From IMG/VR virus record IMGVR_UViG_3300043788_000228, positions 1-48,003 of that record: a DNA stretch of 48,003 bases. One strand, 5' to 3'. Source of the DNA: a virus. This document shows positions 1,187-19,993 of this stretch, in pieces (the first letter of the stretch is position 1; each line of letters starts with the position of its first letter). Both the position numbers and the translations under genes were made by a program. Below the pieces are notes generated by a model. That model was not told where the DNA came from. It saw nothing but the letters and a program-made list of their open reading frames with translations, and did not search any database.

Positions 1187-1717
1187 ATGGATAGCGTATC
1201 ACGTTCGCTGCCCGAAGGTCAACTTCATGGGGCATTGTTGAATTTTTTTTTACCCGATGCGCCGCTAGCTGAAACTGCGCTAGATTACGCACGACTATTA
1301 CGCTGGTTCATATTCCCGCTTAAAGCGTACGGAAAGCGTCCGCGCATCGGATCGCACGGGCTCAACGACGCAACACGTGAACTCAAACAAATAGAAACCT
1401 GGTGGAAAGATGATCCGCAGGCGAATATCGGCATAGATTGTGGACGCTCAAATCTGCTCGTTATCGACGTGGACCCGCGGAACGGCGGAGATGCGGCACT
1501 GCTGCGATGGACGGCCGAGCACGGCACTCTACCCGACACGCAGCTTGTCGCGCGAACTCCCTCTGGCGGTGTCCATTACTACTACACAACGCCACCCGAT
1601 TGGCGCGGGCGTAAGGGCAAACTCTGTCAAGGTGTAGACATTCAAGCCGCAGGAGGATACGTGGTCGCGCCTCCAAGCGTCACACTCGATGGACGTTGGG
1701 AGTGGGCGCAGCAGTGA
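1187..1717 (+). CDS. PrimPol (bifunctional DNA primase/polymerase, N-terminal type)
   Basis: A 176-residue archaeo-eukaryotic-type primase domain (Prim-Pol, PF09250 family). Visible marks are FPLKAYGKRPRIG with a basic patch, a DxD metal site in VIDVDPRNGGD, the histidine motif PSGGVHYYY, and VDIQAAGGYVVAPPSV near the C-terminus. It would synthesise primers for phage replication. In many phages this domain is fused to a helicase; here the ATPase follows as a separate gene with a 4-base GTGA overlap. A run of nine T (about 1242-1250) sits near the start of the gene. The ribosome site AAGGAG is ten bases before ATG. Confidence 0.85.
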   Translation: MDSVSRSLPEGQLHGALLNFFLPDAPLAETALDYARLLRWFIFPLKAYGKRPRIGSHGLNDATRELKQIETWWKDDPQANIGIDCGRSNLLVIDVDPRNGGDAALLRWTAEHGTLPDTQLVARTPSGGVHYYYTTPPDWRGRKGKLCQGVDIQAAGGYVVAPPSVTLDGRWEWAQQ

Positions 1718-2925
1718 GCGACGAGATTCGCCCGCTTTCTTCTGCCGAACTCGCACGATTCCAACGTGGACAGGCGCCCGCAATAGAGAATGCATGGGAG
1801 CAAGATCGATTGCCACAAGGTGTGCAAGATGACGCACTCGTGGCATTAGCTGGATGGGTTCGAGAACATCAACTATGGCGTTTTTCGGAGGAGGGAATCT
1901 ATCATCTGCTGCTCGCCGTAACCTCTAACGGCACACTCGACCAAGACCCGCGCCGTCCGTATACGGAGCGCGACTGTCGCCGCATTGCTCGATCGATCGC
2001 TGCGCATCCTGCGGGCGACCCGTCATTCGAAATCAAGCGATCGCGTCTTGTGTGGGACACACCAATCGTCGGGGAGCCCGCAGATTGGTGGCTGCACGGA
2101 TTCGTGCCAAAAGGCGAATTGGTCATGCTCTACGGCGCGAAAGCCGCCGGCAAATCGACGACAGGAAGTTGGCTGAGTACTGTCGTTACGCAAGCAGGCG
2201 GAACCTTTCTACATATCGGCGTCGAGGAGCCGCATGCACGCTTCCGCGGTCGAGCAGTTATTGGCGGTGCAGTGAACAGCCGTCTTGCTGGGTGGGTCGA
2301 TTCTTTCCGGCTTCCGCACGACGTAGCGGAGTTGGAAGAACTTGTTACGGAGCACCGCATTGACTTTGTGTACTTCGATTCGATTTATTCTCATTTTTCC
2401 GCGCCGCGCGGTACGCTCGAAAACACGCGCGCACGCGGAAATTTAGAGCCTCTCGCGCAAATGGCTCAGCGTACGGGTGCTACGGTGCTCGGGAGCTTCC
2501 ACGATCGTCGATCAGACGGGTCGTATATGGGCTCGACTGAGATGGTCAACGTAGCCCGCGTAGTGCTCAAACTCACGCGCCCGCGTGGCGGATCGAGCCG
2601 CTTAGCGTATGAAGTCGGAAATTACCCGGAACCAGGATACGAGCTTCGTCTGGACGCCGAAGAGCGAGTGCTCACGGACCCGGTAACCGGGGAGGTACAG
2701 ATGGAGCGCCAGCGAGACGGAAGTCTTAAGCCACAAAAGCTACGAGTGGTCGTGGCAGTCGAGGAGATACCCGAAGGGGGAACGAGTGCCGATTTGGCGG
2801 AGGCGGGCAGCGTAGATCACGGGCAACTTGCGCGGGAACTCTCGAACGACGGCCTAAGCAGCGCCGATATAGCCGGGAGGCTGCAACTATCTGTGCGTGC
2901 CGTTAAGCGCTTTTTGTCTAGCTAA
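1714..2925 (+). CDS. RecA-like AAA_25 replicative helicase/ATPase
   Basis: A 403-residue protein counted from GTG 1714, which overlaps the PrimPol stop (GTGA); an upstream TTG at 1696 is the alternative. A Walker A (GAKAAGKST, residues 141-149) is followed by IDFVYFDSIYSHF as Walker B and by GSFHDRRS as a likely sensor, the pattern of RepA-like hexameric helicases (AAA_25). The C-terminus carries a helix-turn-helix-like segment ending RAVKRFLSS. The last six residues are encoded by the start of the 387-bp repeat and are shared with the downstream HTH proteins. With the PrimPol it probably forms a primase-helicase pair at the replication fork. Confidence 0.82.
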   Translation: MSDEIRPLSSAELARFQRGQAPAIENAWEQDRLPQGVQDDALVALAGWVREHQLWRFSEEGIYHLLLAVTSNGTLDQDPRRPYTERDCRRIARSIAAHPAGDPSFEIKRSRLVWDTPIVGEPADWWLHGFVPKGELVMLYGAKAAGKSTTGSWLSTVVTQAGGTFLHIGVEEPHARFRGRAVIGGAVNSRLAGWVDSFRLPHDVAELEELVTEHRIDFVYFDSIYSHFSAPRGTLENTRARGNLEPLAQMAQRTGATVLGSFHDRRSDGSYMGSTEMVNVARVVLKLTRPRGGSSRLAYEVGNYPEPGYELRLDAEERVLTDPVTGEVQMERQRDGSLKPQKLRVVVAVEEIPEGGTSADLAEAGSVDHGQLARELSNDGLSSADIAGRLQLSVRAVKRFLSS

Positions 2926-5306: not shown

Positions 5307-6049
5307 TGCGCCGGATTGCTTGGATCGCATTCGCGCTGCTTACGCTCGGTATCATCGCGTTACCGGCTCAAGCGCAGCAGGCCTGTCCGTGTAATTGGCT
5401 ATTCATGAATACCGGACCAACACCGACGCCAGGTGTAACGCCGGGATTCGTGCAAGCTGCGATGATCGCAACCGCATCTCCTGGCGCGTCGCCTAACGTG
5501 ACATTCAGTGCAACCCCGGCTGCCGGAGATTTGCTTGTAGCCATGTACATGGCCACGCAAGAAACTAACCAAGGCACAAATATAGGCTGGACCCAGATAG
5601 CTTTTATTTCCCAAGCGACTTACGATTGCGAACTGGCGTGGCGTATAGCAGTTCCCGGCGAGCCCGCGACTGAGCAGCCCTTCGATCAACTCGGCGGCAC
5701 AACGGTGGTTAGCATCACGGAAGTAAAAAATTTTCCAGGAAACGGCACAACGGGTACGTTCGATGGCAGCGGGTGTGTGGAAGCTGTGGCAGCTAACCCG
5801 GCAACGGCAACGCTCACGGTGACAAATACTGCAATCAATGATTTCGGCGTTGCGCTGGCCATTGCAAACGTAAACGCCGAAACCGCAATATTTTCAACAG
5901 GATGGGCCAGCGAACTGCACCTCACGACGAATAGCTCGTACGCGCTCGCCACATCAACGCTCACGTCTATGCTCGCGCCGAGTCTTATCGGCACGTGGAG
6001 CGGCGGCACAAGCTCGATTTCAGATATTGTGGGAGTCTATATCAAATGA
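5306..6049 (+). CDS. Exported protein with one fibre-like beta domain
   Basis: 247 residues; ATG 5306 overlaps the previous stop (TAATG). Signal peptide [25 protein letters not shown] with a likely signal peptidase site after AQA. A short Thr-Pro stretch leads to a ~200-residue domain with the pattern [38 protein letters not shown]. The same pattern occurs twice in the next protein ([21 protein letters not shown]). I infer a jelly-roll-like adhesive domain. Function in virion or host surface is unknown. Confidence 0.65.
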
Positions 6050-8907
6050 ATCGGATATGCGCGGTAATTCTTTGCATACTCGCTATGACGCTCGGTCTGT
6101 ACCAAACAAGCAGTCAAGTATCCGCGCAGATTGCGCCGTCCCCCGGCCCGAATCCGTACTCATTCGCGTGTACGATCAACACCAACACGCCGAATTGCGG
6201 GTTCAACCTCAACGGGCAAACATTGTGCAGCGTAGACGTGAACGGATCGTGGTCGCCCTCACTTGCCGTTAAACTGTCCACGAGCAAGTGGACAACGGGC
6301 GTAGTGGCTTTAGGGGGTAGCACAACGCAGGCGGTGATCTCTGCGGACGGCTTATATTTCACGTCTACAGCAGCCGTGAGCGCTATTCAAGTAAGCGCTG
6401 CTACTCCATTCATTGGCACGGCTTCAATTAATTTTTACTGTGTTTATGCGGCGAACGGAGGAAGCGCAAGTACGACGCTTCCGACCCCCACGCCCTCTAT
6501 GACGCCTACGCCTACACCGACTCCAACGCCTACTCCAACGCCTACACCGACTCCAACGCCCACCCCAACACCGACGCCCTCGCCTAGCCCGACCCCCACG
6601 CCGACGCCTGTGCCAGGACCGCAGCTTGCACAAAATCCTGCCGCTGCGGCTGCGAATTGTGCCGCTTCGAACACAACCGGCACGCTGGCAATGCAGCCCG
6701 CGGCGGGTGACCTCATCGACATCATCCTGAAGACTAGTACGACAACTGGCACACTGACCGTTCCTCCGAGCGGGTTCACGCAAAAAAACACTGTGACCAA
6801 CAGCCTCGTGTATGTCGAGTGGTTCACCATTTCCAACGGCGCGAGTGGCGAGACATTCACGTACCCAATGGGCGGCACGCCGAACGGTCGGTGTGACACG
6901 TGGGTCATCGACGTAAGCGGCGAAAATCAATCCGCTCCGTTTGATATTAACAACGTGAATGCAAGCACGCTTACCGGAAGCGCAGGACCGTTTATCACCA
7001 ACGCCGTCACGGCTTCCAACCCGGATGATTTTGCCATCGCAGCGGTCGATGCTGGCACAACCGGATTAACGCTTACGGGCTTCGCTCCATCAGGCGCAAC
7101 GAATTGGGGAGATTCAGGAGATTTTTCAAACCACTTATTCACGCAGGCCGACGTACCTAACGGAGCAGGAACGTATTCTGTTCAGTGGTCGGCGTCTTCT
7201 ACGAACAGTTTCGCGCACCAACTCGAAGTGCTCGATATGATAGCACCAGCGTCGAGCGGCGGAAGTGCAGCCGGCCCCGATCTCGCGCAGCCGGTGTGCC
7301 ACTCGGTCGGGTCGTCGAGTTGTACGATGATGTCCGCTCCCGCGGACGGAGATGTACTCATAGCGGTCGTAGAAAACGCGGGTGCATCCAATATGGGAAA
7401 TTGCGCTTCGGGATGGACGCTGCGCTCTAGCGCGTCACCGTCAAGCTCGACGATTGCGGCGAATACTTGCACACAAGTCGCCAGTTCCGTTACGACAACG
7501 GTTACACCGGACGACGGCACTGGGCACACAACGACGAACGACATCACGGTATACGACGTAACCGGTACGGGTTTGGCCATCGACGCATCAAGTGGTGCAA
7601 TCAGTGGAACCGGATCGCAGAATCTTGCGATTGCGCCGACGCAAGCGAACGACTTGATCCTGTCGGCGGCCTTCGCCGGTGGATCAGGAACGACGCAGCT
7701 TCAGACGCCAAAAACACCGAACGGTTTAGGCTGGTATCGCGTAGCTGAGTCGAGCGCTGCTCCGGTAGCGGACACGTTCTTTGACGGCGCGGCGTACCTT
7801 ATGCAGGCTGCGAGCGGATCGCAGGCGGTCGGTTGGGGCTTTACCGGATCGTCGGCTTCACCGCTCGTTGTCGCGATCGCGATTTCCGGCAGCACTACGG
7901 CAACGTCCTACGCCTACCAGGGCTGTAAGGTGTTCGGAAATAACGATCTAGTCGTCGATCGAAACCTCTCAACAGCATCCATCGACCCGAATAGCGCGAC
8001 GATCATCTCACAGCTTCCCGGAGGATCGTTCGATACCGGAGACGACGCGCCAGACGAGCAAATGAATGTTGGCACAAGCGCTACGAATCTCGAAGTGGTC
8101 GGCACGAATGGCGGCCACAATCCGCCGATGAACAACGGTTCGGGCGCGACGATCCCCTGGATCAACTGCACGACGAGTTGCAATGGAAACGGCGGAGGCA
8201 CAGGGTTCGGCGGTACAGGCGGATTCATCGAGTCGCTCTCGGACGCCCACGCGCACGTCATCACAACCGATACCTGCGACCTATGGGAAACCTTCGGATC
8301 AAAGTCTACAAGTACGACATTTGCCGCGAGCGCGGGCTTCCACGCGCATTTGAATAATAACTACTACACGCAGCCAACCAATGTGAATTTCGCTGGTAAG
8401 CTCATCTATGACGACGCCGGGCAGGTTTCCGGCATGCCGATGACCGGCGTGATCGATTGGGGCGAAGATGCGAGCTTGCCAGCGATCAATCATCCGCTTT
8501 CGCTCATCGTGCCTGGCGGAACCGGACTCTCGGCAGATGGCTACGTGTTTCCCGCGACGTGCCAAGGCGCATGTGCAGTAGCGGATACCGGCTGCGGCGG
8601 ATCGGCATGCACGCATCCACTTCATATGGGCGACCTTATACGACTCGCGCCGTCGTTTTCGTGCGGCTCATACACGACCATCGGGCAACTCGTATGCAAT
8701 CAGCTTAAGAACTACGGTGCCTATATCACCGATACCGGCAGTTCTTATGAGTTGCGTTTCGGACTCTCGGCGGCTGGAATCGACACGTGGAACTATACGA
8801 CAAACCTTAAACCGCTGTTTTCGGCGCTCTCCATTAGTGTGTTCCAGATCGTCAAAGAGCCGACTATCCAGTGTGCAAGCGGCACGTTCGGCTCGACCTG
8901 CTTCTAG
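6046..8907 (+). CDS. Large exported multidomain protein (two fibre-like domains plus C-terminal module)
   Basis: 953 residues from ATG 6046, overlapping the previous stop (ATGA). Order: signal peptide ([15 protein letters not shown], cleavage near SAQ); a beta-rich region to about 145; a (Thr-Pro)n linker; domain 1 (about 190-410) and domain 2 (about 415-625), both of the same family as the 5306 gene; and a ~330-residue C-terminal module rich in His, Cys and Asp. The end of that module (GDLIRLAPS..., [19 protein letters not shown]) has the pattern RLxPS...L.NYG also found at the end of the - strand protein at 25437-26522. I infer a receptor-binding, carbohydrate-active or adhesive role. It may act outside the cell or on the virion. 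Confidence 0.68.
6481..6612 (+). repeat. Low-complexity Thr-Pro coding repeat
   Basis: Imperfect tandem 6- and 12-base repeats (accgactccaacgcc and variants) encode about 20 Thr-Pro pairs. They act as an extended linker between the N-terminal region and the first beta domain of the 953-residue protein. Length variation among relatives is likely. Confidence 0.85.
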
Positions 8908-10707: not shown

Positions 10708-13062
10708 GTGGCGCAAGATCATCCAGAATGCACGCGCTGCCCGCTATATGAAAGCGCATGCTCCGTCGGTGTGGGCGGCGTCGGGAGCGGAGACGTGCTC
10801 ATTGTCGGCCAAAACTGCGGCGCAGAAGAGGACTTGGCCGGAGAGCCGTTCGTTGGGCCCTCCGGTAAGCTGCTCAAGTCCATGCTCGCTGATGCCGGCT
10901 TTCAGACAGATGATTATCGCCTTTCCAATGCCGTGCGGTGCCGTACACCGAAGAACCGGCCGCCGGAACACAAGGAGATACTTGCATGCCGTCCGCACTT
11001 GATCGAGGAAGTCCAGTCGTGCAAGCCATCGGCTATCATCGCGCTTGGCGACGTGGCGCTTACCGCTCTTACCGGACTGTCCGGTATATCATCCAAACGC
11101 GGTCAGCCTTTACCGCTACTTGGCGCATTCGGTTATACCTGCGAAGTGTACGCTGCGTGGCATCCCGCGTATGTTATGCGTGTACCAATGTCTCGCGCCA
11201 CGGTTGTGTCGGACCTACGCCGTGTGCGAGATCGCGGGCTAGAACAGGAAGAGATCGCGTGGACTCATGACGCAATCGCCTGTGATCGTCGTGTGGCATA
11301 CGACATCGAAACGTACGACGAGGAGGGAAATATCACAGAAGAAATGACCTCTATCGCTGTTTGCGGCGGTAGCGATCTAGCGCTTGTATCACGAGATCGC
11401 AAGCACGCGAAGCAGATCGTGCGCGAAATTGCGCGCTATAGTAAGGGCGTTACAATATCGCATTTCGGCTGGGATTTTGATGATAAAAAAACAGGATTAC
11501 GCTCGGATTATGATACGGCTGCGCTCGCGTACCTCATGGACGAGACACAGCCTTTAGGCCTTGAGTCGTTGTGCGTGAAGTACCTCGGCGCGCGCGGTTG
11601 GAAGGAAGCGCGCGATGGTGCTAAGCTCGGCACGGAAGAATTGAAAGTCTACAATGCGCGGGACGCCGTGCTTACGAGGAGATTGTTCGATTATGAATAC
11701 CAAGCTCTCCAAGAAACAACGCGTGCAGGTGTACCGCGAATACGAGTTGCTGAAAGCATTCTGCGCCCTCTTCGATTGGCGCTTGACGCCTGCTCATCGC
11801 GTGGTATTTTTATCAATGCGCGCGAAGTCGCTGCGGAAAAAGAGCGACAAGTTCTTCGTGTTGCCGAATCGTTGGCGCTAGTCAACGTCGAAGCGCACAA
11901 AGCACTCGGTGCGGGTGCATTCGATAAGCCGCTTAAGACGAAGGTGAAGCAGACACCATTTAACCCCGGATCGACATTGCACGTGGGTGCGGTGTTGTCT
12001 GCGCTCGGATTCACGAATTTGCCAAAAACGGGCAAAAAAAGGCAGATAAAAACAGACGAAGAGACACTAGAGATGCACGCGGGGTGCGCATTCACCGATG
12101 CGCTACTCGCGTGGCGTCAGGCCGAAAAGCGCATGAGCACGTATATTCTGCCGTACGAGCGTGCGGCTGCATCGGAGAGCGGACGTATTTTCTCGCAGTA
12201 TACGGTCATTCGCGTGCTGACAGGCCGCACGAGCGCGCGCGGGCGCAACATTCAAAATCTGGACCGCGAGCTTAAGAAGTTCTTTTCTGCTCCCGAAGGT
12301 CGTGTGCTCGTGCGCGCGGACTACCAACAAATCGAGTTTTGGGTGGCCATGTGGATGGCGGGGGTGGAGCGGTTAATCGTACGCCGTGCGGATGATTCTG
12401 CGTTCGATCCGCACACCTACTTTGCTTCGATCATGTACCGTTGTAGCGAGGCAGATATTCTAACGGAGGCGGCTCAAAAGAAAGCATCCGGTGACCCAAA
12501 TAGCCGAAGGCAGATCGCAAAATCCGCCCACTTCGCCTTGCTCTATATGGGTGGACCGCAAACACTCATCGATTACGCGGCCGGGTACGGCATCATGCTC
12601 ACGCGCGACGAAGCACAAGCAATTTACGACGCATTTCATCGGGCGTACCCCGAGGTACGAGATTGGTGGGGACGCGTGAAGGCCGAGATGAACCAGTATG
12701 GCTATGTCGAGAATCCGACAGGGCGCCGACGGCATTTTGGCGACGTTTCGCTCCTCAAGGCGGGCGGTATGTTTGAGAGCGCGCACCGAGAAGCAACCAA
12801 CGCGCTGGTACAAGGATTCGCTACAGGCGACATCAGCGAACTTGGGCTAATCGCATGCCACGAAGCGGGATTGCCGGTCGTCGGATTTATCCACGACGAA
12901 GTCCTTTTGGAGTTTAAAACGGAAGCTTTGCAGCACAAAGATATAGTCGAGCGCGCTGTTAGCGAGGCGATGATCGATGCGCCGGTACGCGCGTTGCGCG
13001 AGAAATTTAACGTCGATTTCCCAAAGCATCTCCTAGCCGTTGACTTTACATACAGCGCGTAG
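10708..13062 (+). CDS. Uracil-DNA glycosylase / family A DNA polymerase fusion
   Basis: 784 residues from GTG 10708. Residues 1-180 form a family 4/5 uracil-DNA glycosylase: cysteines C8, C11, C78, C94 in the 4Fe-4S spacing, GQNCGAEED at the motif A position, GEPFVGPSG, and WHPAYVMR. Then a 3'-5' exonuclease (DIET with D199 and E201; a second Asp in SHFGWDFDD). The C-terminal half is a PolA palm/fingers: motif A DYQQIEFW (D538), motif B RRQIAK (R600-K605), motif C HDE (729-731). It would replicate the phage genome; the glycosylase could excise or sense uracil. The QNC at motif A differs from the usual EAP, so excision activity is uncertain. Confidence 0.9.
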   Translation: MAQDHPECTRCPLYESACSVGVGGVGSGDVLIVGQNCGAEEDLAGEPFVGPSGKLLKSMLADAGFQTDDYRLSNAVRCRTPKNRPPEHKEILACRPHLIEEVQSCKPSAIIALGDVALTALTGLSGISSKRGQPLPLLGAFGYTCEVYAAWHPAYVMRVPMSRATVVSDLRRVRDRGLEQEEIAWTHDAIACDRRVAYDIETYDEEGNITEEMTSIAVCGGSDLALVSRDRKHAKQIVREIARYSKGVTISHFGWDFDDKKTGLRSDYDTAALAYLMDETQPLGLESLCVKYLGARGWKEARDGAKLGTEELKVYNARDAVLTRRLFDYEYQALQETTRAGVPRIRVAESILRPLRLALDACSSRGIFINAREVAAEKERQVLRVAESLALVNVEAHKALGAGAFDKPLKTKVKQTPFNPGSTLHVGAVLSALGFTNLPKTGKKRQIKTDEETLEMHAGCAFTDALLAWRQAEKRMSTYILPYERAAASESGRIFSQYTVIRVLTGRTSARGRNIQNLDRELKKFFSAPEGRVLVRADYQQIEFWVAMWMAGVERLIVRRADDSAFDPHTYFASIMYRCSEADILTEAAQKKASGDPNSRRQIAKSAHFALLYMGGPQTLIDYAAGYGIMLTRDEAQAIYDAFHRAYPEVRDWWGRVKAEMNQYGYVENPTGRRRHFGDVSLLKAGGMFESAHREATNALVQGFATGDISELGLIACHEAGLPVVGFIHDEVLLEFKTEALQHKDIVERAVSEAMIDAPVRALREKFNVDFPKHLLAVDFTYSA

Positions 13063-13108: not shown

Positions 13109-14086
13109 ATGACGCACCTTCCTATTGTCATATCATTTACCGACTTCTCAAACTTTAAGCGCTGTAGAAAGCTCTTCGATCTTTCGTATCTGCGGCAACT
13201 CTCGCCGAAAGGCGATGCGAGTCCAGCTATGCAGTCCGGCACCGATATTCATAAGCTATTGGAGCTAGAAGCGCGCGGTCTACCGTGGACCGGCAGCGCG
13301 CCGGTAGAGCACGCGGAAGTTACGCGCGCGTATCTCAATCGGCACCCGCTGCCGAACGGTATCATTTCCGCCGAAGAGCCGATCTATCTACGCGTGCTCG
13401 GGGAGACGGACGCGCAGCCTGCCGTTTATATCCGCGTAACGCTTGACTTGATTTACACACGTGGTAAAAAGACGATCGTTGGCCGCGACTACAAAACATT
13501 CATGACTGCGCCGTCGTTCGACTTCGATCTTGATTTTCAGGGGCGCATTTATTCCACCGTGTTGTGGCGCACGTATCCTAGCAACGACATCGAGTTCGAA
13601 TGGGTTCCAATTCGACAGGCGCTCGGACGCGATCTTAAGGGCAAAGGCTTCGTCGCGTGGACAGAAGAGGAGCGGTATCCGCAAATCCCGCCGATTGTGA
13701 TGTCAGACATCGAGTACGAAACCACCTGGCGAGAGTTGCAAGAAACGACGCACGATCTCATACGCGCTGTGTTGGAGAATCGACTTTATCGCTCGGACCT
13801 CAAAGCCGGTCCACATTCGTGTGATAACTGCCACTATAAAGGCGCATGTAAGGCGGAATACTCGCATGGCGAATTGACTCCAATGGACGCCGCGTTATTC
13901 ACAGATAAGACCAATCCCGGTGCACGCGCGACTCTCCAAGGCATGCTCGCGGACCCGCGCGTGGTATTTCACGCCGAGCATGCGGACGATCCGACTGCGG
14001 TTGGCGCGATCGTTGACGCTGTTAATAACGTCTACGGAGCTACCGGCATACAACTACTTCAAGGAGCTACTCATGCACACCGATGA
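13109..14086 (+). CDS. PD-(D/E)XK nuclease, RecB/Cas4-like
   Basis: 325 residues. The N-terminus has SFTDFSNFKRCRKLFDLSY and SGTDIHKLLE (the His of motif I). The core has VTLDLIYTRGKKTIVGRDYKT, giving the D...D-x-K catalytic pattern, then QGRIYSTVLW for the Q-x3-Y motif. Cysteines CDNCHYKGAC near residues 240-250 may be part of an iron-sulphur cluster as in AddB/Cas4-type nucleases; a fourth cysteine (C17 region) is available. It is expected to process DNA ends for recombination or degrade host DNA. It heads the recombination cassette. Confidence 0.82.
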   Translation: MTHLPIVISFTDFSNFKRCRKLFDLSYLRQLSPKGDASPAMQSGTDIHKLLELEARGLPWTGSAPVEHAEVTRAYLNRHPLPNGIISAEEPIYLRVLGETDAQPAVYIRVTLDLIYTRGKKTIVGRDYKTFMTAPSFDFDLDFQGRIYSTVLWRTYPSNDIEFEWVPIRQALGRDLKGKGFVAWTEEERYPQIPPIVMSDIEYETTWRELQETTHDLIRAVLENRLYRSDLKAGPHSCDNCHYKGACKAEYSHGELTPMDAALFTDKTNPGARATLQGMLADPRVVFHAEHADDPTAVGAIVDAVNNVYGATGIQLLQGATHAHR

Positions 14087-14360
14087 ACGTGAAGGCGTGT
14101 TCGAATCTATCATCGAAGAGCTTGCGCGCCAGAACGAGTTAAAGGCCTCTGGTAAGTTCTCGCACACAGCCGAGAATCTCATGTTCAACCCGACGACGCT
14201 GCGCGTCATGCAGATGGTCAGCGTGTTGACGGAAGAAGTCGGTGAGGTTGCGCGCGCCGCGAATGACGATGCGTTCGACGAACTCGACAAAGAACTCATT
14301 CAGGTCGCCGCGGTCGCAGTGAGCGCGCTCATCGGATTCCGCGCGTTTAAGGCCATCTGA
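14073..14360 (+). CDS. MazG-like nucleotide pyrophosphohydrolase
   Basis: 95 residues from ATG 14073, with AAGGAG six bases upstream; it overlaps the nuclease gene by 14 bases. LTEEVGEVARA with DELDKELIQVAA carries the EExxE...ExxD metal-binding helices of all-alpha NTP pyrophosphatases (MazG). Phage members hydrolyse dNTPs or (p)ppGpp-like molecules. It is shorter than full MazG, but similar to single-domain phage forms. Confidence 0.65.
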   Translation: MHTDEREGVFESIIEELARQNELKASGKFSHTAENLMFNPTTLRVMQMVSVLTEEVGEVARAANDDAFDELDKELIQVAAVAVSALIGFRAFKAI

Positions 14361-15142
14361 TGCCGACCATTTATCGCCTAGATGCCGACTCTACCGGCAC
14401 CGATTCCATTCAATCGTACGTGGACGAACATAAAATCATCAACATTCCTTGTCCAACGTTCAAGGCGTTCGATATCGCCGCAGCCGATTTACAGGATAAG
14501 GTCGAGCCCGGCGATGCTGTGATATTTGACACACTCACCGTGCTACTCGATACCACGCGCGGCGACATGATGCATGGCGACGACCCAAGTAAGCTGCTGT
14601 GGAATGAGCATGAGAAGTACTACGGAGATAAGCAGTATCTCAACACGTATAAGGGCTCGCAAAACCTTACACTGAGACGCGTGCGTAATCTCGTGAATCG
14701 GGGAGTACATGGGATTATCGTCTGTCACACAAAGGAAGGTAAAGACCAATGGGACACGCTCGACAAGCGTGCCGTTCCGCTCGTCAACCCAGCGATGGTC
14801 GATGATCTCATTGGTGCCTGCTCGGACGTATTCATGCTCGAAGTGCTGGAGACAGACTTCTATGCAGGGGAAAAAGTAGCGATACCGGCGGGCGAGCACG
14901 TCCTATGGTTGCGGCGTACGGCTGCGCACACAGCTAAGTTTCACGTCGATCCGAAGCGGGTCGATCCAAAAAAGATACCCGACGGCATCAAAGACCCCAC
15001 GATGGAAAAGTTGTGCGGCGTCTTGCATAAGGTTCCCAAGTGCCTCTGCATCTACGGGCACCCTGGATCGGGAAAATCCACGCTCGCTGCGGGCATCGTC
15101 GAAGCACTCACTGCCAAGCCTACCGCTAAAAAGAAAGAGTAA
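14360..15142 (+). CDS. RecA-like (Sak4/AAA_24-type) ATPase, apparently circularly permuted
   Basis: 260 residues; ATG 14360 overlaps the previous stop (TGATG). Sak4/AAA_24 recombinases normally begin with Walker A, followed by Walker B. Here the order is reversed: Walker B-like DAVIFDTLTVLLD (D57) and HGIIVCHTKEGK come first, then the AKFHVDPKR region, and a canonical Walker A, GHPGSGKST (233-241), lies 20 residues from the C-terminus. The N-terminus (PTIYRLDADST) matches what usually follows the Walker A helix, so the ends have been moved into that loop. Role: single-strand annealing or strand exchange with the neighbouring SSB-like protein and nuclease (family knowledge and context). Confidence 0.8.
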   Translation: MPTIYRLDADSTGTDSIQSYVDEHKIINIPCPTFKAFDIAAADLQDKVEPGDAVIFDTLTVLLDTTRGDMMHGDDPSKLLWNEHEKYYGDKQYLNTYKGSQNLTLRRVRNLVNRGVHGIIVCHTKEGKDQWDTLDKRAVPLVNPAMVDDLIGACSDVFMLEVLETDFYAGEKVAIPAGEHVLWLRRTAAHTAKFHVDPKRVDPKKIPDGIKDPTMEKLCGVLHKVPKCLCIYGHPGSGKSTLAAGIVEALTAKPTAKKKE

Positions 15143-15146
15143 AATC

Positions 15147-15815
15147 ATGTCTACCGATAAAAATCAAGAGCATTACAGTTCATCGCAACTATCCTCCTTC
15201 GGCGATGTCGTGCCTGTCGGCACGTACACGCGCGTCAAGCTCAAGACCCTCGACGCAAAGGAGAGCGAGAACGCAGAAAAGCCATCGAATTTCGTGTCAC
15301 TCTCTTTTGAGATTCTCGACAAAGGCGAGCAAGAAGGCCTCAAGGCGTTCTTGACGCTGTTCCCCACGGTCACGAAGTCGCCAAAAAACGGTAAGCTCTA
15401 TTCCAAAGGCCTCTTCGAGGCGCAGCAGATGTGCGCAGCTTGGGGCGTGCCGCTGGTGGAGTTCTCGCTCGACGAGTACATCAAAGACGAAGAGCACGGT
15501 CGGAAGGGCTGCACAATCAAAGGCGCGCGCGCGCTCGTCAAGATGATTGGCGACTCATACAAGAAGGCCGGTGCTCCGCTATTGCGTATCAAAGTGCAGA
15601 ACGAAAAAGCGCAAGAGGCTGTCGAGCAGAACGGTAAAAAAGTTTGGGTAGATAAGAAGGACGAGGACGGTAACCAAGTCTATAACCGCGTGACGCACGT
15701 ACTTGGCCGCGCCGCCGAGGTGCAGACTAACGCTACGGTATCGGTCGGTAAGGCCGCTTCCGCGCTAGAAGATAGCGTAGATGACGACGTTCCTAGCGCG
15801 TTGAACTTCGTATGA
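15147..15815 (+). CDS. Single-stranded DNA-binding-like protein
   Basis: 222 residues. It is Lys- and Asp-rich with an OB-like beta pattern (VPVGTYTRVKLKTLDAKE; FVSLSFEILDKGE; GLKAFLTLFP). It ends in an acidic tail closing DDDVPSALNFV, like the SSB tail (DDDIPF) that docks partner proteins. Similar phage proteins (DUF669-type) sit next to Sak4-like ATPases, as here. It would coat ssDNA and load the recombinase. Confidence 0.7.
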   Translation: MSTDKNQEHYSSSQLSSFGDVVPVGTYTRVKLKTLDAKESENAEKPSNFVSLSFEILDKGEQEGLKAFLTLFPTVTKSPKNGKLYSKGLFEAQQMCAAWGVPLVEFSLDEYIKDEEHGRKGCTIKGARALVKMIGDSYKKAGAPLLRIKVQNEKAQEAVEQNGKKVWVDKKDEDGNQVYNRVTHVLGRAAEVQTNATVSVGKAASALEDSVDDDVPSALNFV

Positions 15816-16102: not shown

Positions 16103-16213
16103 GTGGAGCAGATAACGGTAGAAGGGGTTTTTATCGGTTTTATGTGCGCGTCTCTTGTGGTGCTTATTTTTGAGATTGGGATGCACTGCGGCCGTCGCGG
16201 TAGGCGCAATTGA
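16103..16213 (+). CDS. Single-pass membrane mini-protein
   Basis: 36 residues from GTG 16103, directly abutting the preceding stop. GVFIGFMCASLVVLIFEIG is a likely transmembrane segment, with a basic C-terminus (CGRRGRRN), so the N-terminus would face out. Its TGA overlaps the TTG of the next gene. Function unknown. Confidence 0.45.
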   Translation: MEQITVEGVFIGFMCASLVVLIFEIGMHCGRRGRRN

Positions 16214-16602
16214 AGGAGACGCCTTTTAAGCTGCGCATACGTCGTTGGCTCGTAGCGCAAGGATTCCCAACTTGGAATAATAAGCGCGACCGTTTCACGC
16301 AATCTGGGTTGCCGGATATCATGGGAGTGTTTCCCGACGGTAGGCTGTTTGCGATCGAGGCCAAAGCGCCGGGTCGCTATAAGGACGCTTGGGATGGGCT
16401 CACCCCCGCCCAAATCGTGTGGTGTAGGCGGTTAGCGCAAAGCGGCGTATACGTGCTTATCGTCGATGATTTTAAGGCGTTGACGACGGCGTTTGCGGCG
16501 CTGTGTTCGCCTTCAAGTACCGATCGACTTTCAGCCGAAAGCGCGCGTACGCGTTCGCTTCAAGCTGGTGATCGTGATGTGCGCGGAAGTACTCGCGATT
16601 AA
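16210..16602 (+). CDS. VRR-NUC / PD-(D/E)XK nuclease
   Basis: 130 residues from TTG 16210, overlapping the previous stop (TTGA). SGLPDIMGVFPDG and RLFAIEAKAPGR give the D...E-x-K catalytic core of VRR-NUC/Holliday-junction-resolvase-like nucleases, and LTPAQIVWCRRL with VYVLIVDD completes the fold. The last ~35 residues overlap the 3' end of the opposite-strand virion gene by 131 bases and look unlike any domain. It probably resolves replication or recombination intermediates before packaging. It is the last + strand gene before the convergent late block. Confidence 0.75.
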   Translation: MKETPFKLRIRRWLVAQGFPTWNNKRDRFTQSGLPDIMGVFPDGRLFAIEAKAPGRYKDAWDGLTPAQIVWCRRLAQSGVYVLIVDDFKALTTAFAALCSPSSTDRLSAESARTRSLQAGDRDVRGSTRD

Positions 16603-19600
16603 AGGTATCCAAGAATCTATCAAGCACTTTTTGCTCGGCGGGCGTCCTACGGTCGTATTGAAATCCGCCAAGTAGTACGGGTGCGATGAGGCTCGGATTG
16701 CCTTTTGTTATTGCTAAGGAGAGCGCATGCGCGAGGTTACCAACTTGGGACCCGAATGGGATGCTATTCGCGCCGAGGTATTGAGCGATCTGCTGCGCTT
16801 GCGTGTCGAGCGGCGCATGGCGGTCAAAGAGCACGTCATTGCGCGGCGATACGCCTGGCTCCTCGGCTTCGTTATTCGCAAGCTCGCGGCCAAAGGATAC
16901 CGCGTCAGCGAGCAGCGGCGTCAGATGCTCTTGCGCTACCTGACCGGCAGCGTTCAGACGCTCCGGGATACCCGCTCCAATGTCTGTCTGCCCGCTGACA
17001 CGCGGAGCGAGGAAGTCGAGCACAGGCTCGATGCGCGTTTGCGGTAACCCTGATGATGTGTAGCTCGCCTGGCCGTTCACGTCCGTGCCGTTGTAGATCG
17101 TGCCGAGGCTTTCGGTGTCTACGTTGGGATCGCCCGCTACGGCGTTGTGTGTTTGCATCGCACGAAGCGGTGCGGTAACGAGTTGCGGACGCTTCACTGA
17201 TGCCGAGAACCAAAACGGAACTACAGTTTTTAACCACGGATAGAAGTATAACGCCCGGCTAAATTTCTGCTCGAATGCCGTCAGGTTGCTGTAATCACCA
17301 AATGCCTTGCGCACTTGTTCCGCCGCATCGCGTTTCGCCGTAGACTCTTCTGCGCCTTTGGCGATATTTTGTTGCGAGAGGTGGTCCCAAAGCTCCGTTG
17401 CCATATTTCGTTCTAGGCGGTCGAACACAAGTTTTTTATTGGCATTCGCTACGCGCGTGAGTATATAGTCTATCTTTCCACCTAAGCCTCCCGGTGCTTG
17501 TCCGAGTGTGCCGTTCAGCAGCGCTTGTACGTCTCCGCCCAATGCACTGCGTTCGGGAAACATCGCATGCGCGCCGTACGACCGGGCCTCTTCGTCGAGC
17601 GGTGCCGCCGCTCCGCGGAACATGCGAGTCAAACGCGCCGGATTTCCGCCTGCGCCTAAGTAGTTCCAGAACAAGTTCTTGAACGGATGCACGATCGGAT
17701 TCGTGATGACGCCCATTCGGTACAGCCAATTGAAGCGATCGAGCCATGTAGCGACGGCGTTCGCTTCCTGCGGGGGGGCTCCAGCTTGGGTGAAATACGG
17801 AATCAGTTCATCCCGCACGGCGGTGTAATGCGCCGATTCTAGACCGGATAGACCCGGAATGTCACTCATGAGCGAGAAGCCTTTCGGTACAACTTCTCCG
17901 CCCGCTATAAACGCCTGCTTGATATACTTTGCAGTCAACTCTTTCGTGTACTCGTTGCGCGCCTTAACGTATGCGTCTCGGACACCGCGGCGCGGATCGG
18001 TCAAGTTCGCCCATAGCTGCGCGCCGCGTTTGGTAGTCTGCCGCTCGGTGGCATTCATCGCGCGCACGATGCCGTTCGGCGTTCTTGCGGCGATGTTCGC
18101 TGCGCTTCGCGCCTGACGCTCGGCGGCACGCGCTGCGGCTAGCTCGCGCGGGCCTACCTGCGTATGTAGTCGCGGCTGGCGCGCGCCAAGTGCGACTGCG
18201 GCATCGCGATCGAGCGCCGTCGGCGGTACTCCACGCTTCTCTAGTTCGGCGTCGGCCTGCTTTTCTAGCGCCCCAGCCGCTTGCGCTTTGAGCTTATCGG
18301 CCGTACCCTGCGCGACCCCGGCTGCGCGGTTGCCGAGTTTCGTCTGCTGGCGCGCGCCATGCTCTAGTTCGGCGATCTGTCCCTTGAGGCGTTGCGGCGA
18401 AGCGAAGCGGGTTTTGATGAGCCACGCTTTGTCTTCGTCCGATAGACCGAATTGCCTCGCAACGTCGTCGATCGCGCGGCGAACCGCAGTCGCACGCGCG
18501 TCTTCTTTCGACTGCCGAAGCGTGAATGCGGCGATCCCGTGCGCTGCGGGCACGTCGCGCGTGTGCGGATTGACTACGCCCTTTGTCACTTGGCCGGGAG
18601 CGATAAGGCCTTCTTCTAGTGGCTGTAAAAGCTCTTGCGCGGCTTCGGGCTCGGTGATGAGCGCCTTGCGTAGGGACTCTAGCGCGACGTTGGACGCCAC
18701 GCGATTAAAGTGGGCGAGGTCGTTTTTCGGAATGCGGAAGTCGGGATTGAGCAGCGTCTTGCCGTGCTCAGCGTACCACTCATTTGCTTCGAGTACTTGA
18801 GTCGGTGTGCGGAACGTCTTAGATGCGCCGTTCGGCCCACGGAAGCGCAAGTTCGTAACACGTCCGTTCGCGCGCTGGAAGGAGTTGGGTAGCTCCTCTT
18901 CGCTGTGGAGCGTGTAGTCCTCGCCCGGATTCATGCGAAAGTAGTTCTGCATCATCGTGTCCGGGTTCGCGCCGAGATCGAGTTGGGCGCGGTCGGCCGC
19001 CAGATGATCGACGCGCGACTGCTGCGCCGCTTTCGTGATCTCGTCGTCGGTGAGCGTCGGGGTGTACGGTTTACCGAGCGGCGTGAATCCCGGTGTATGC
19101 GGGTAGTTCTGGCGTAGCTGCTCGATCGGCATTGGCGACTCGCCCGTTGCGCGTCGCTTGATCTCCCATTGCTCTTCTGCCGTTGTGCCTCCTTTGAGCC
19201 CGCCTACGCTCTCGTGGGGGTTATACACGGCATGCACGAGCGCCTCATTGTGGGCAGCTACCTGCTTCGCGTTTGCGTCCTGCGCGCGTAGAATCGATTC
19301 CACGTTATCGTTGACCTTCCGACCCGGGGCGTACTTGTTGAAGAGTTCGTGCCCGTAATCGGCAGCGGCGTCGAGCGCGCGCGCTACGCCGGGTACTGCC
19401 CTCGCGCTAGCGTTGAGCGCCTCGCCGCCGTACTTGACCAAGGGCCCAAGAAGCGCGTTTGACGGGTTGGCGAACTCGGCAGCGAAGTCTCCGGCCGCCG
19501 CCCCCCATGGATTCTTTAGAAGGGCCTGAGACGCGGCTTTCTCCCCTTCCGTGGCGCTCGGGTCGGCAAGGACGCGCTTGAGCGATCCTGGTCGAAAATA

Positions 19601-19993
19601 GACATCATTCTGTGCGACCTGGTGCGCCCCGCCCTCAGAATAATCTTTGTTGACCTGCTCCATCTGCGAACCCGGTTCATGCGGATTCCAAGTGATGCCG
19701 CCCGGTTTAGCCAGGTCCGAGATGCCCGCTTCGAGATAAGCAAGCGGTGCGTCGGTCGCGTCCATACCCGCTTCGAGCGCGGAAGCGGCTCCACGTTTCG
19801 GCGCAAACACGTTCCCCGGCAGTCGAGCGATCGGGCTCTCTTGCGGCGCAGTGCCGTTACCCGGCGCTCCTGCCCACACGTGCGCATCGGGCGCGGTAGG
19901 CGCGCCCGTCCACAGTTTGCCCACCCTTTGCGCGCGCGAAGGGGCCGGAGCTTGCGGCGTTGCCACGCCGGGGGCTCCCGCCCAAGCGGTCAA
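16472..19993 (-). CDS. Giant internal virion (ejection) protein
   Basis: 1173 residues from TTG 19993, which overlaps the previous stop (TTGA). The N-terminus has three WAGAPG/WTGAP-type repeats; the middle is Ala/Arg/Gln-rich and helical. Near residues 900-980, KAFGDYSNLTAFEQ and YPWLKTVVPFWF resemble the large polyvalent-protein domain (LPD38-like) of phage internal proteins. Such proteins are packed in the capsid and injected with the DNA in short-tailed phages. It is the last gene of the late operon. Its 3' end overlaps the VRR-NUC gene on the other strand. Confidence 0.72.
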   Translation of the reverse strand: MTAWAGAPGVATPQAPAPSRAQRVGKLWTGAPTAPDAHVWAGAPGNGTAPQESPIARLPGNVFAPKRGAASALEAGMDATDAPLAYLEAGISDLAKPGGITWNPHEPGSQMEQVNKDYSEGGAHQVAQNDVYFRPGSLKRVLADPSATEGEKAASQALLKNPWGAAAGDFAAEFANPSNALLGPLVKYGGEALNASARAVPGVARALDAAADYGHELFNKYAPGRKVNDNVESILRAQDANAKQVAAHNEALVHAVYNPHESVGGLKGGTTAEEQWEIKRRATGESPMPIEQLRQNYPHTPGFTPLGKPYTPTLTDDEITKAAQQSRVDHLAADRAQLDLGANPDTMMQNYFRMNPGEDYTLHSEEELPNSFQRANGRVTNLRFRGPNGASKTFRTPTQVLEANEWYAEHGKTLLNPDFRIPKNDLAHFNRVASNVALESLRKALITEPEAAQELLQPLEEGLIAPGQVTKGVVNPHTRDVPAAHGIAAFTLRQSKEDARATAVRRAIDDVARQFGLSDEDKAWLIKTRFASPQRLKGQIAELEHGARQQTKLGNRAAGVAQGTADKLKAQAAGALEKQADAELEKRGVPPTALDRDAAVALGARQPRLHTQVGPRELAAARAAERQARSAANIAARTPNGIVRAMNATERQTTKRGAQLWANLTDPRRGVRDAYVKARNEYTKELTAKYIKQAFIAGGEVVPKGFSLMSDIPGLSGLESAHYTAVRDELIPYFTQAGAPPQEANAVATWLDRFNWLYRMGVITNPIVHPFKNLFWNYLGAGGNPARLTRMFRGAAAPLDEEARSYGAHAMFPERSALGGDVQALLNGTLGQAPGGLGGKIDYILTRVANANKKLVFDRLERNMATELWDHLSQQNIAKGAEESTAKRDAAEQVRKAFGDYSNLTAFEQKFSRALYFYPWLKTVVPFWFSASVKRPQLVTAPLRAMQTHNAVAGDPNVDTESLGTIYNGTDVNGQASYTSSGLPQTRIEPVLDFLAPRVSGQTDIGAGIPERLNAAGQVAQEHLTPLLADAVSFGRELANNEAEEPGVSPRNDVLFDRHAPLDTQAQQIAQYLGANSIPFGSQVGNLAHALSLAITKGNPSLIAPVLLGGFQYDRRTPAEQKVLDRFLDTFNREYFRAHHDHQLEANAYARFRLKVDRYLKANTAPQTPSSTP

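Follow-up and report, generated by a model that had tools for sequence, protein, structure and literature searches.

The open reading frame at 14360-15142 (+ strand, 260 aa) of the window, a virus record of 48,003 bases analysed at its full length, very probably encodes a natural circular permutant of the phage protein Sak4, with the RecA/Rad51 core. The protein, cpSak4, would bind ATP and anneal single-stranded DNA, and its gene may have arisen by duplication. That the parts of this frame stand in permuted order is near certain. The protein was matched by Pfam AAA_24 (PF13479; E=5e-8, 33.4 bits against a Pfam cut-off of 27) and by PHROG_124, 'Sak4-like ssDNA annealing protein' (E=2e-14). The AAA_24 match was out of order, with residues ~24-193 on profile positions 40-192 and residues 227-246 on positions 3-22; matches of both families in out-of-order pieces are the signature of a permutation. 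The initial annotation had read the protein as a circularly permuted Sak4-type ATPase with a RecA-like fold, and this is supported by a rotation test, by homologues with the same order and by an AlphaFold2 model.

Order of parts and the rotation test

The cpSak4 frame opens at 14351, just three codons upstream of 14360, and its ATG overlaps the stop codon of the upstream gene by one base. The ATG of the next gene (15147) lies 4 bases past the cpSak4 stop codon. Both ends had been described as fixed by overlapping neighbours, which holds for the 5' end and not for the 3' end, where there is a 4-base gap.

All parts of the protein were placed on the + strand. The chain starts at strand β2 (residues 4-8), followed by the acidic D10 (14369-14389; alignment and AlphaFold2 strand). 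The Walker B block DAVIFDTLTVLLD occupies residues 52-64 and includes D57 (14513-14551; alignment, model strand 53-57), and strand β4 runs up to H123, a sensor-like histidine (14708-14728; alignment and model). The basic K193 (14936-14938; alignment and HHalign) lies past the C-terminal β-hairpin. At the junction (15002-15040; HHalign and model) the last helix of the conventional order (residues 215-222) is linked by about five residues (223-227) to β1. The relocated β1-Walker A-α1 unit (residues 228-251; 15041-15112; HHalign, alignment and model) falls in the last ~35 residues and contains the Walker A motif GHPGSGKST (15056-15082). A short low-confidence tail (15113-15139; pLDDT < 50 at residues 256-260) ends the protein. 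The positions first given for the two motifs, residues 52-64 and 233-241, were confirmed. When the window protein was shuffled, GxxGxGK[ST] occurred anywhere in 119 of 200,000 shuffles. The old C-terminal helix is kept, as [ND]PTxxKLxxxLG in the permuted set versus NPxYxxLxxLMKGE in conventional Sak4.

An end-to-end alignment to an unpermuted profile was sought and not found; AAA_24 and conventional Sak4 profiles both matched in two pieces. Rotation was tested using HHalign, with the profile of the permuted family compared to a profile of 18 conventional Sak4 proteins. The unrotated profile aligned in two pieces, scoring 76.7 and then 46.9 (17 columns). A scan of cut points gave a clear optimum at residues 225-231 with a score of 110.8, covering conventional positions 21-250, and E fell from 1e-10 in the native order to 6.5e-16 after rotation at residue ~225. 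Re-cutting the sequence for profile searches had been proposed with the initial annotation, and the rotated protein aligned in one piece using HHalign, Pfam and PHROG alike. Residues 2-222 of the rotated window protein lay colinearly on positions 3-192 of the 195 of AAA_24 (E=4.2e-10, versus 5.2e-8 native), and PHROG_124 gave a single colinear match (E=2.8e-16, versus 2.1e-14 native). A colinear, Walker A-first match to the Sak4 family thus fails for native cpSak4 and is reached after rotation only; since its native matches are not colinear, the protein is classed as a permuted variant and not as a standard Sak4 member. NCBIfam models were uninformative, and a sequence search of the PDB returned generic P-loops only.

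The AlphaFold2 model built from 17 sequences had a pLDDT of 85.9 and a pTM of 0.85 (an earlier model from 6 sequences had a pLDDT of 73.6). Its elements, which came in the expected order, included β2 at residues 4-8, β4 at 117-128, β1 at 228-233 and α1 at 239-251 in two pieces, and the C-terminal segment was modelled as strand (228-233), P-loop and helix with a pLDDT of about 94-96. In ASCE folds strand β4 sits between the Walker A strand and the Walker B strand. Foldseek searches of BFVD with the 6-sequence model gave phage nucleotide-binding, AAA, Sak4 and RecA-like proteins as best matches (E down to 4.5e-9). Against the PDB, XRCC2, DMC1 and RecA led for the 17-sequence model at weak E (0.01-0.04); low scores are expected where a permuted chain is aligned sequentially, but these are weak all the same. 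The cpSak4 chain is predicted to fold into an ordinary RecA-like core.

Permuted relatives, gene cassette and likely function

Homologues with the same order were sought and found in 16 further IMG/VR contigs (L002, L003, L004, L008, L010, L036-L040, L042, L044-L047 and L052), giving 17 viral contigs in all. They were reached via the neighbouring polymerase, and the alignment of those proteins then retrieved more; cpSak4 as its own query retrieved no close relatives. Identity to the window protein was 21-44%, and the median pairwise identity in the permuted set was 33%. Each of the 16 relatives carries one permuted copy, and no conventional Sak4 copy was found in the permuted-Sak4 contigs. The permuted proteins all start with a strand of the MIYLLDAD type and have the P-loop near the C-terminus, with 5-26 residues between it and the protein end. 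The place of the P-loop was kept in 16 of the 16 complete proteins first compared and in the full-length L042 copy. The known permuted members are all encoded on metagenomic contigs; a search of 50,697 phage records found none, and neither did scans of a bacterial genome collection with ATPase and polymerase profiles. A tblastn search of cultured phages and plasmids for close relatives yielded nothing of substance; with L052 as query there were partial matches only, to RecA-like proteins of conventional order and to one annotated replicative helicase. Search patterns could not be built from the 17-row alignment because of its divergence. L075, retrieved by a P-loop pattern, was set aside as a conventional AAA_24-like protein. 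In L004 the frame has no ATG, GTG or TTG ahead of strand β2, and the apparent start of the permuted Sak4 is a rare ATT codon (L004:9735) after an AAGGAG-like site.

In the 17-row alignment D10, D52, D57, Y97 and P140 were invariant, and G13, G115, H123, R159, L160, K193, P213, Y232, G236, G238 and K239 nearly so; the L042 row is shortened by the end of its locus, and the last positions rest on 16 rows. H123 is kept in 16 of 17 proteins (Q in L036), and R159 is M in the window protein. The Walker B aspartate D57 was present in 17/17 and the Walker A lysine K239 in every complete member. A catalytic acidic residue and a basic finger from the C-terminal β-hairpin region are among the signatures listed in PMC8093625. 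D10 and K193 stand at plausible positions for these. D10 is a candidate catalytic acid and candidate equivalent of RecA E96, the catalytic glutamate of the RecA superfamily. K193, which HHalign aligns to the TK(I/V)R region of conventional Sak4, is a candidate trans-acting finger.

The gene lies in a cassette on the + strand, which starts with a UDG-domain and family A DNA polymerase (PolA; 10708-13062; PF03167, PF00476). A PD-(D/E)XK (Cas4-like) exonuclease follows (13109-14086; PF12705 E=3e-12, phrog_69 E=1e-13), which is also found upstream in homologous loci. Directly 3' of cpSak4 is the gene for a protein with an acidic C-terminus (..DSVDDDVPSALNFV; 15147-15815), in the same place in related loci. 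It had no family match above threshold, and its profile resembles the protein after the conventional Sak4 of phage Lebethron (HHalign probability 84%), which weakly suggests an SSB-like identity. The cassette ends with a VRR-NUC, Holliday-junction-resolvase-like nuclease (16210-16602; phrog_93 E=2e-12; PF08774 E=1e-4, which narrowly misses the cut-off), again at the equivalent position in related loci. This arrangement of polymerase, PD-(D/E)XK exonuclease, cpSak4, SSB-like protein and VRR-NUC, in that order, was shared by 14 loci, the window among them. In L042, L046 and L052 a longer distance separates the exonuclease and cpSak4 from the polymerase, and the locus stops short of the remaining genes. 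The UDG-superfamily domain is fused to the N-terminus of the polymerase in relatives too; the L010 polymerase copy is shorter, and its match begins past that domain. A small MazG-like open reading frame (14073-14360; phrog_2831 E=4e-11; MazG E=4e-4, narrowly missing the Pfam cut-off) is inserted between the exonuclease and cpSak4 in the window, and other loci have different short inserts or none.

In the cultured phages MW202455, Lebethron, Biskit and Muddy a conventional Sak4 occupies the equivalent slot, so that both forms stand between a Cas4-like exonuclease and an SSB-like protein. The Sak4 of HK620 binds ssDNA, and its annealing is ATP-dependent and stimulated by the neighbouring SSB (PMC5928155); replication of phage phi11 requires Sak4 and Ssb (PMC5499656). 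According to a report cited in PMC5499656, PA73 Sak4 with a mutated Walker A recombines normally, and on that second-hand account some Sak4 proteins may be able to work without using ATP. By analogy, cpSak4 is most simply read as doing the job of conventional Sak4, and its most likely function would be ATP-dependent ssDNA annealing together with the exonuclease and the SSB-like protein. It would bind ATP as other Sak4 proteins do and act in phage replication and recombination, binding and annealing ssDNA made by the neighbouring exonuclease, and the SSB-like protein may help the annealing.

It is unlikely that cpSak4 is a true RecA-fold ATPase that no longer anneals and serves, for example, to load or regulate the SSB-like protein or the polymerase in an ATP-gated way. 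Such a change of role would suit the great length of the branch that parts the permuted proteins from the conventional ones (1.45 changes per column to one side of the midpoint and 0.37 to the other) and the loss of the N-terminal segment before β1, but the main residues of the ATPase are kept, as is its setting between exonuclease and SSB-like genes, and no conventional Sak4 was seen in these contigs that could anneal instead. A defence role was dropped, the PADLOC matches being generic P-loop ones.

Tree and origin

When 16 permuted and 25 conventional proteins were placed in one tree, a single branch (100/99) parted the two sets, and the split was also obtained from the protein bodies after removal of the P-loop and of the longest branches. 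A single origin of the permuted Sak4 fits this tree, which is not proof of it. Duplication and trimming are the textbook route to circular permutation. Here sak4 could have been duplicated in tandem, after which the first copy lost its 5' part and the second its 3' part. The old C-terminal helix would thereby have been joined through about five residues to β1-Walker A-α1, and the chain opened in the α1-β2 loop, such that the protein begins at β2 and ends just past α1. Leftover duplicate sak4 pieces were sought in the related contigs and none was found, and no intermediate was seen.

The same topology might have been reached by fusion, if a Sak4 had lost its own β1-Walker A-α1 and later gained a foreign P-loop at its C-terminus. 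A P-loop of ~30 residues is too generic as proof of descent, and the C-terminal piece alone weakly matches many unrelated P-loop families. Yet the added piece is β1-P-loop-α1 only and brings nothing further from a donor domain. In the profile comparisons it fits best as the missing N-terminus of Sak4, where the score has a clear peak, and the tree is consistent with one origin; fusion is accordingly rated as quite improbable. An artefact (gene-calling error, frameshift, chimeric assembly or chance P-loop) would be conceivable for a metagenomic virus record, but with 17 separate contigs sharing the order, firm frame limits and conserved catalytic residues its likelihood is negligible, and the initial exclusion of a gene-calling error stands. 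Mending of the permuted gene by a circular RNA was also rejected, because the stop codon at the end of the frame would break reading across the join.

Related systems and the remainder of the window

Phage Sak4 proteins (AAA_24, PF13479; PHROG_124), for example those of HK620, phi11 and Lebethron, share the catalytic blocks and, by prediction, the RecA-core body with cpSak4. The Walker A motif is near the N-terminus in conventional Sak4, whereas it is C-terminal in cpSak4, which lacks the segment before β1. RecA, Rad51, RadB and XRCC2 core ATPases have the predicted fold in common with cpSak4 and are not permuted; RecA and Rad51 have an extra DNA-binding domain, which Sak4 lacks. The YjeQ/RsgA and YlqF/RbgA GTPases are P-loop NTPases in which circular permutation has also arisen naturally (PMC6912228). 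They differ as TRAFAC GTPases of ribosome assembly with another breakpoint, not sharing the ASCE/RecA fold predicted for cpSak4. Circularly permuted DNA methylases of phages are a recorded permutation of a phage DNA-metabolism enzyme (PMC7824862), unrelated in fold and chemistry. No report of a permuted Sak4, RecA or Rad51-core protein was found in the literature searched, which covered a minority of subscription papers.

The N-terminal lead before β1 is the place of the polymerisation motif in Rad51/RadA. In cpSak4 β1 has no free N-terminal lead and the new ends lie at the α1-β2 loop, so oligomer and coupling may differ. It is possible, though doubtful, that the permutation alters recombinase assembly, giving another oligomer or a new ATP-DNA coupling in an annealase with re-wired protomer contacts. 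The conserved permutation would mean that a RecA core can be opened at the α1-β2 loop and have its old ends joined, and cpSak4 would be a natural experiment on the termini needed for filament or ring formation. The proteins are also compact candidates for recombineering, and colinear profile searches miss part of such permuted proteins.

Phage portal, major head and lysozyme-like virion proteins are encoded elsewhere in the window. An open reading frame of 970 aa in the replication half (5995-8907, +) had no Pfam, PHROG or PADLOC match, and one of 1,173 aa, convergent with the cassette (16472-19993, -), had no Pfam or PHROG match; a large minus-strand frame downstream of the cassette is also present in L002, L003, L004, L008 and L010. 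At 1696-2925 (+) the window encodes an AAA_25 (RepA-like) ATPase in conventional order (E=1.7e-14).
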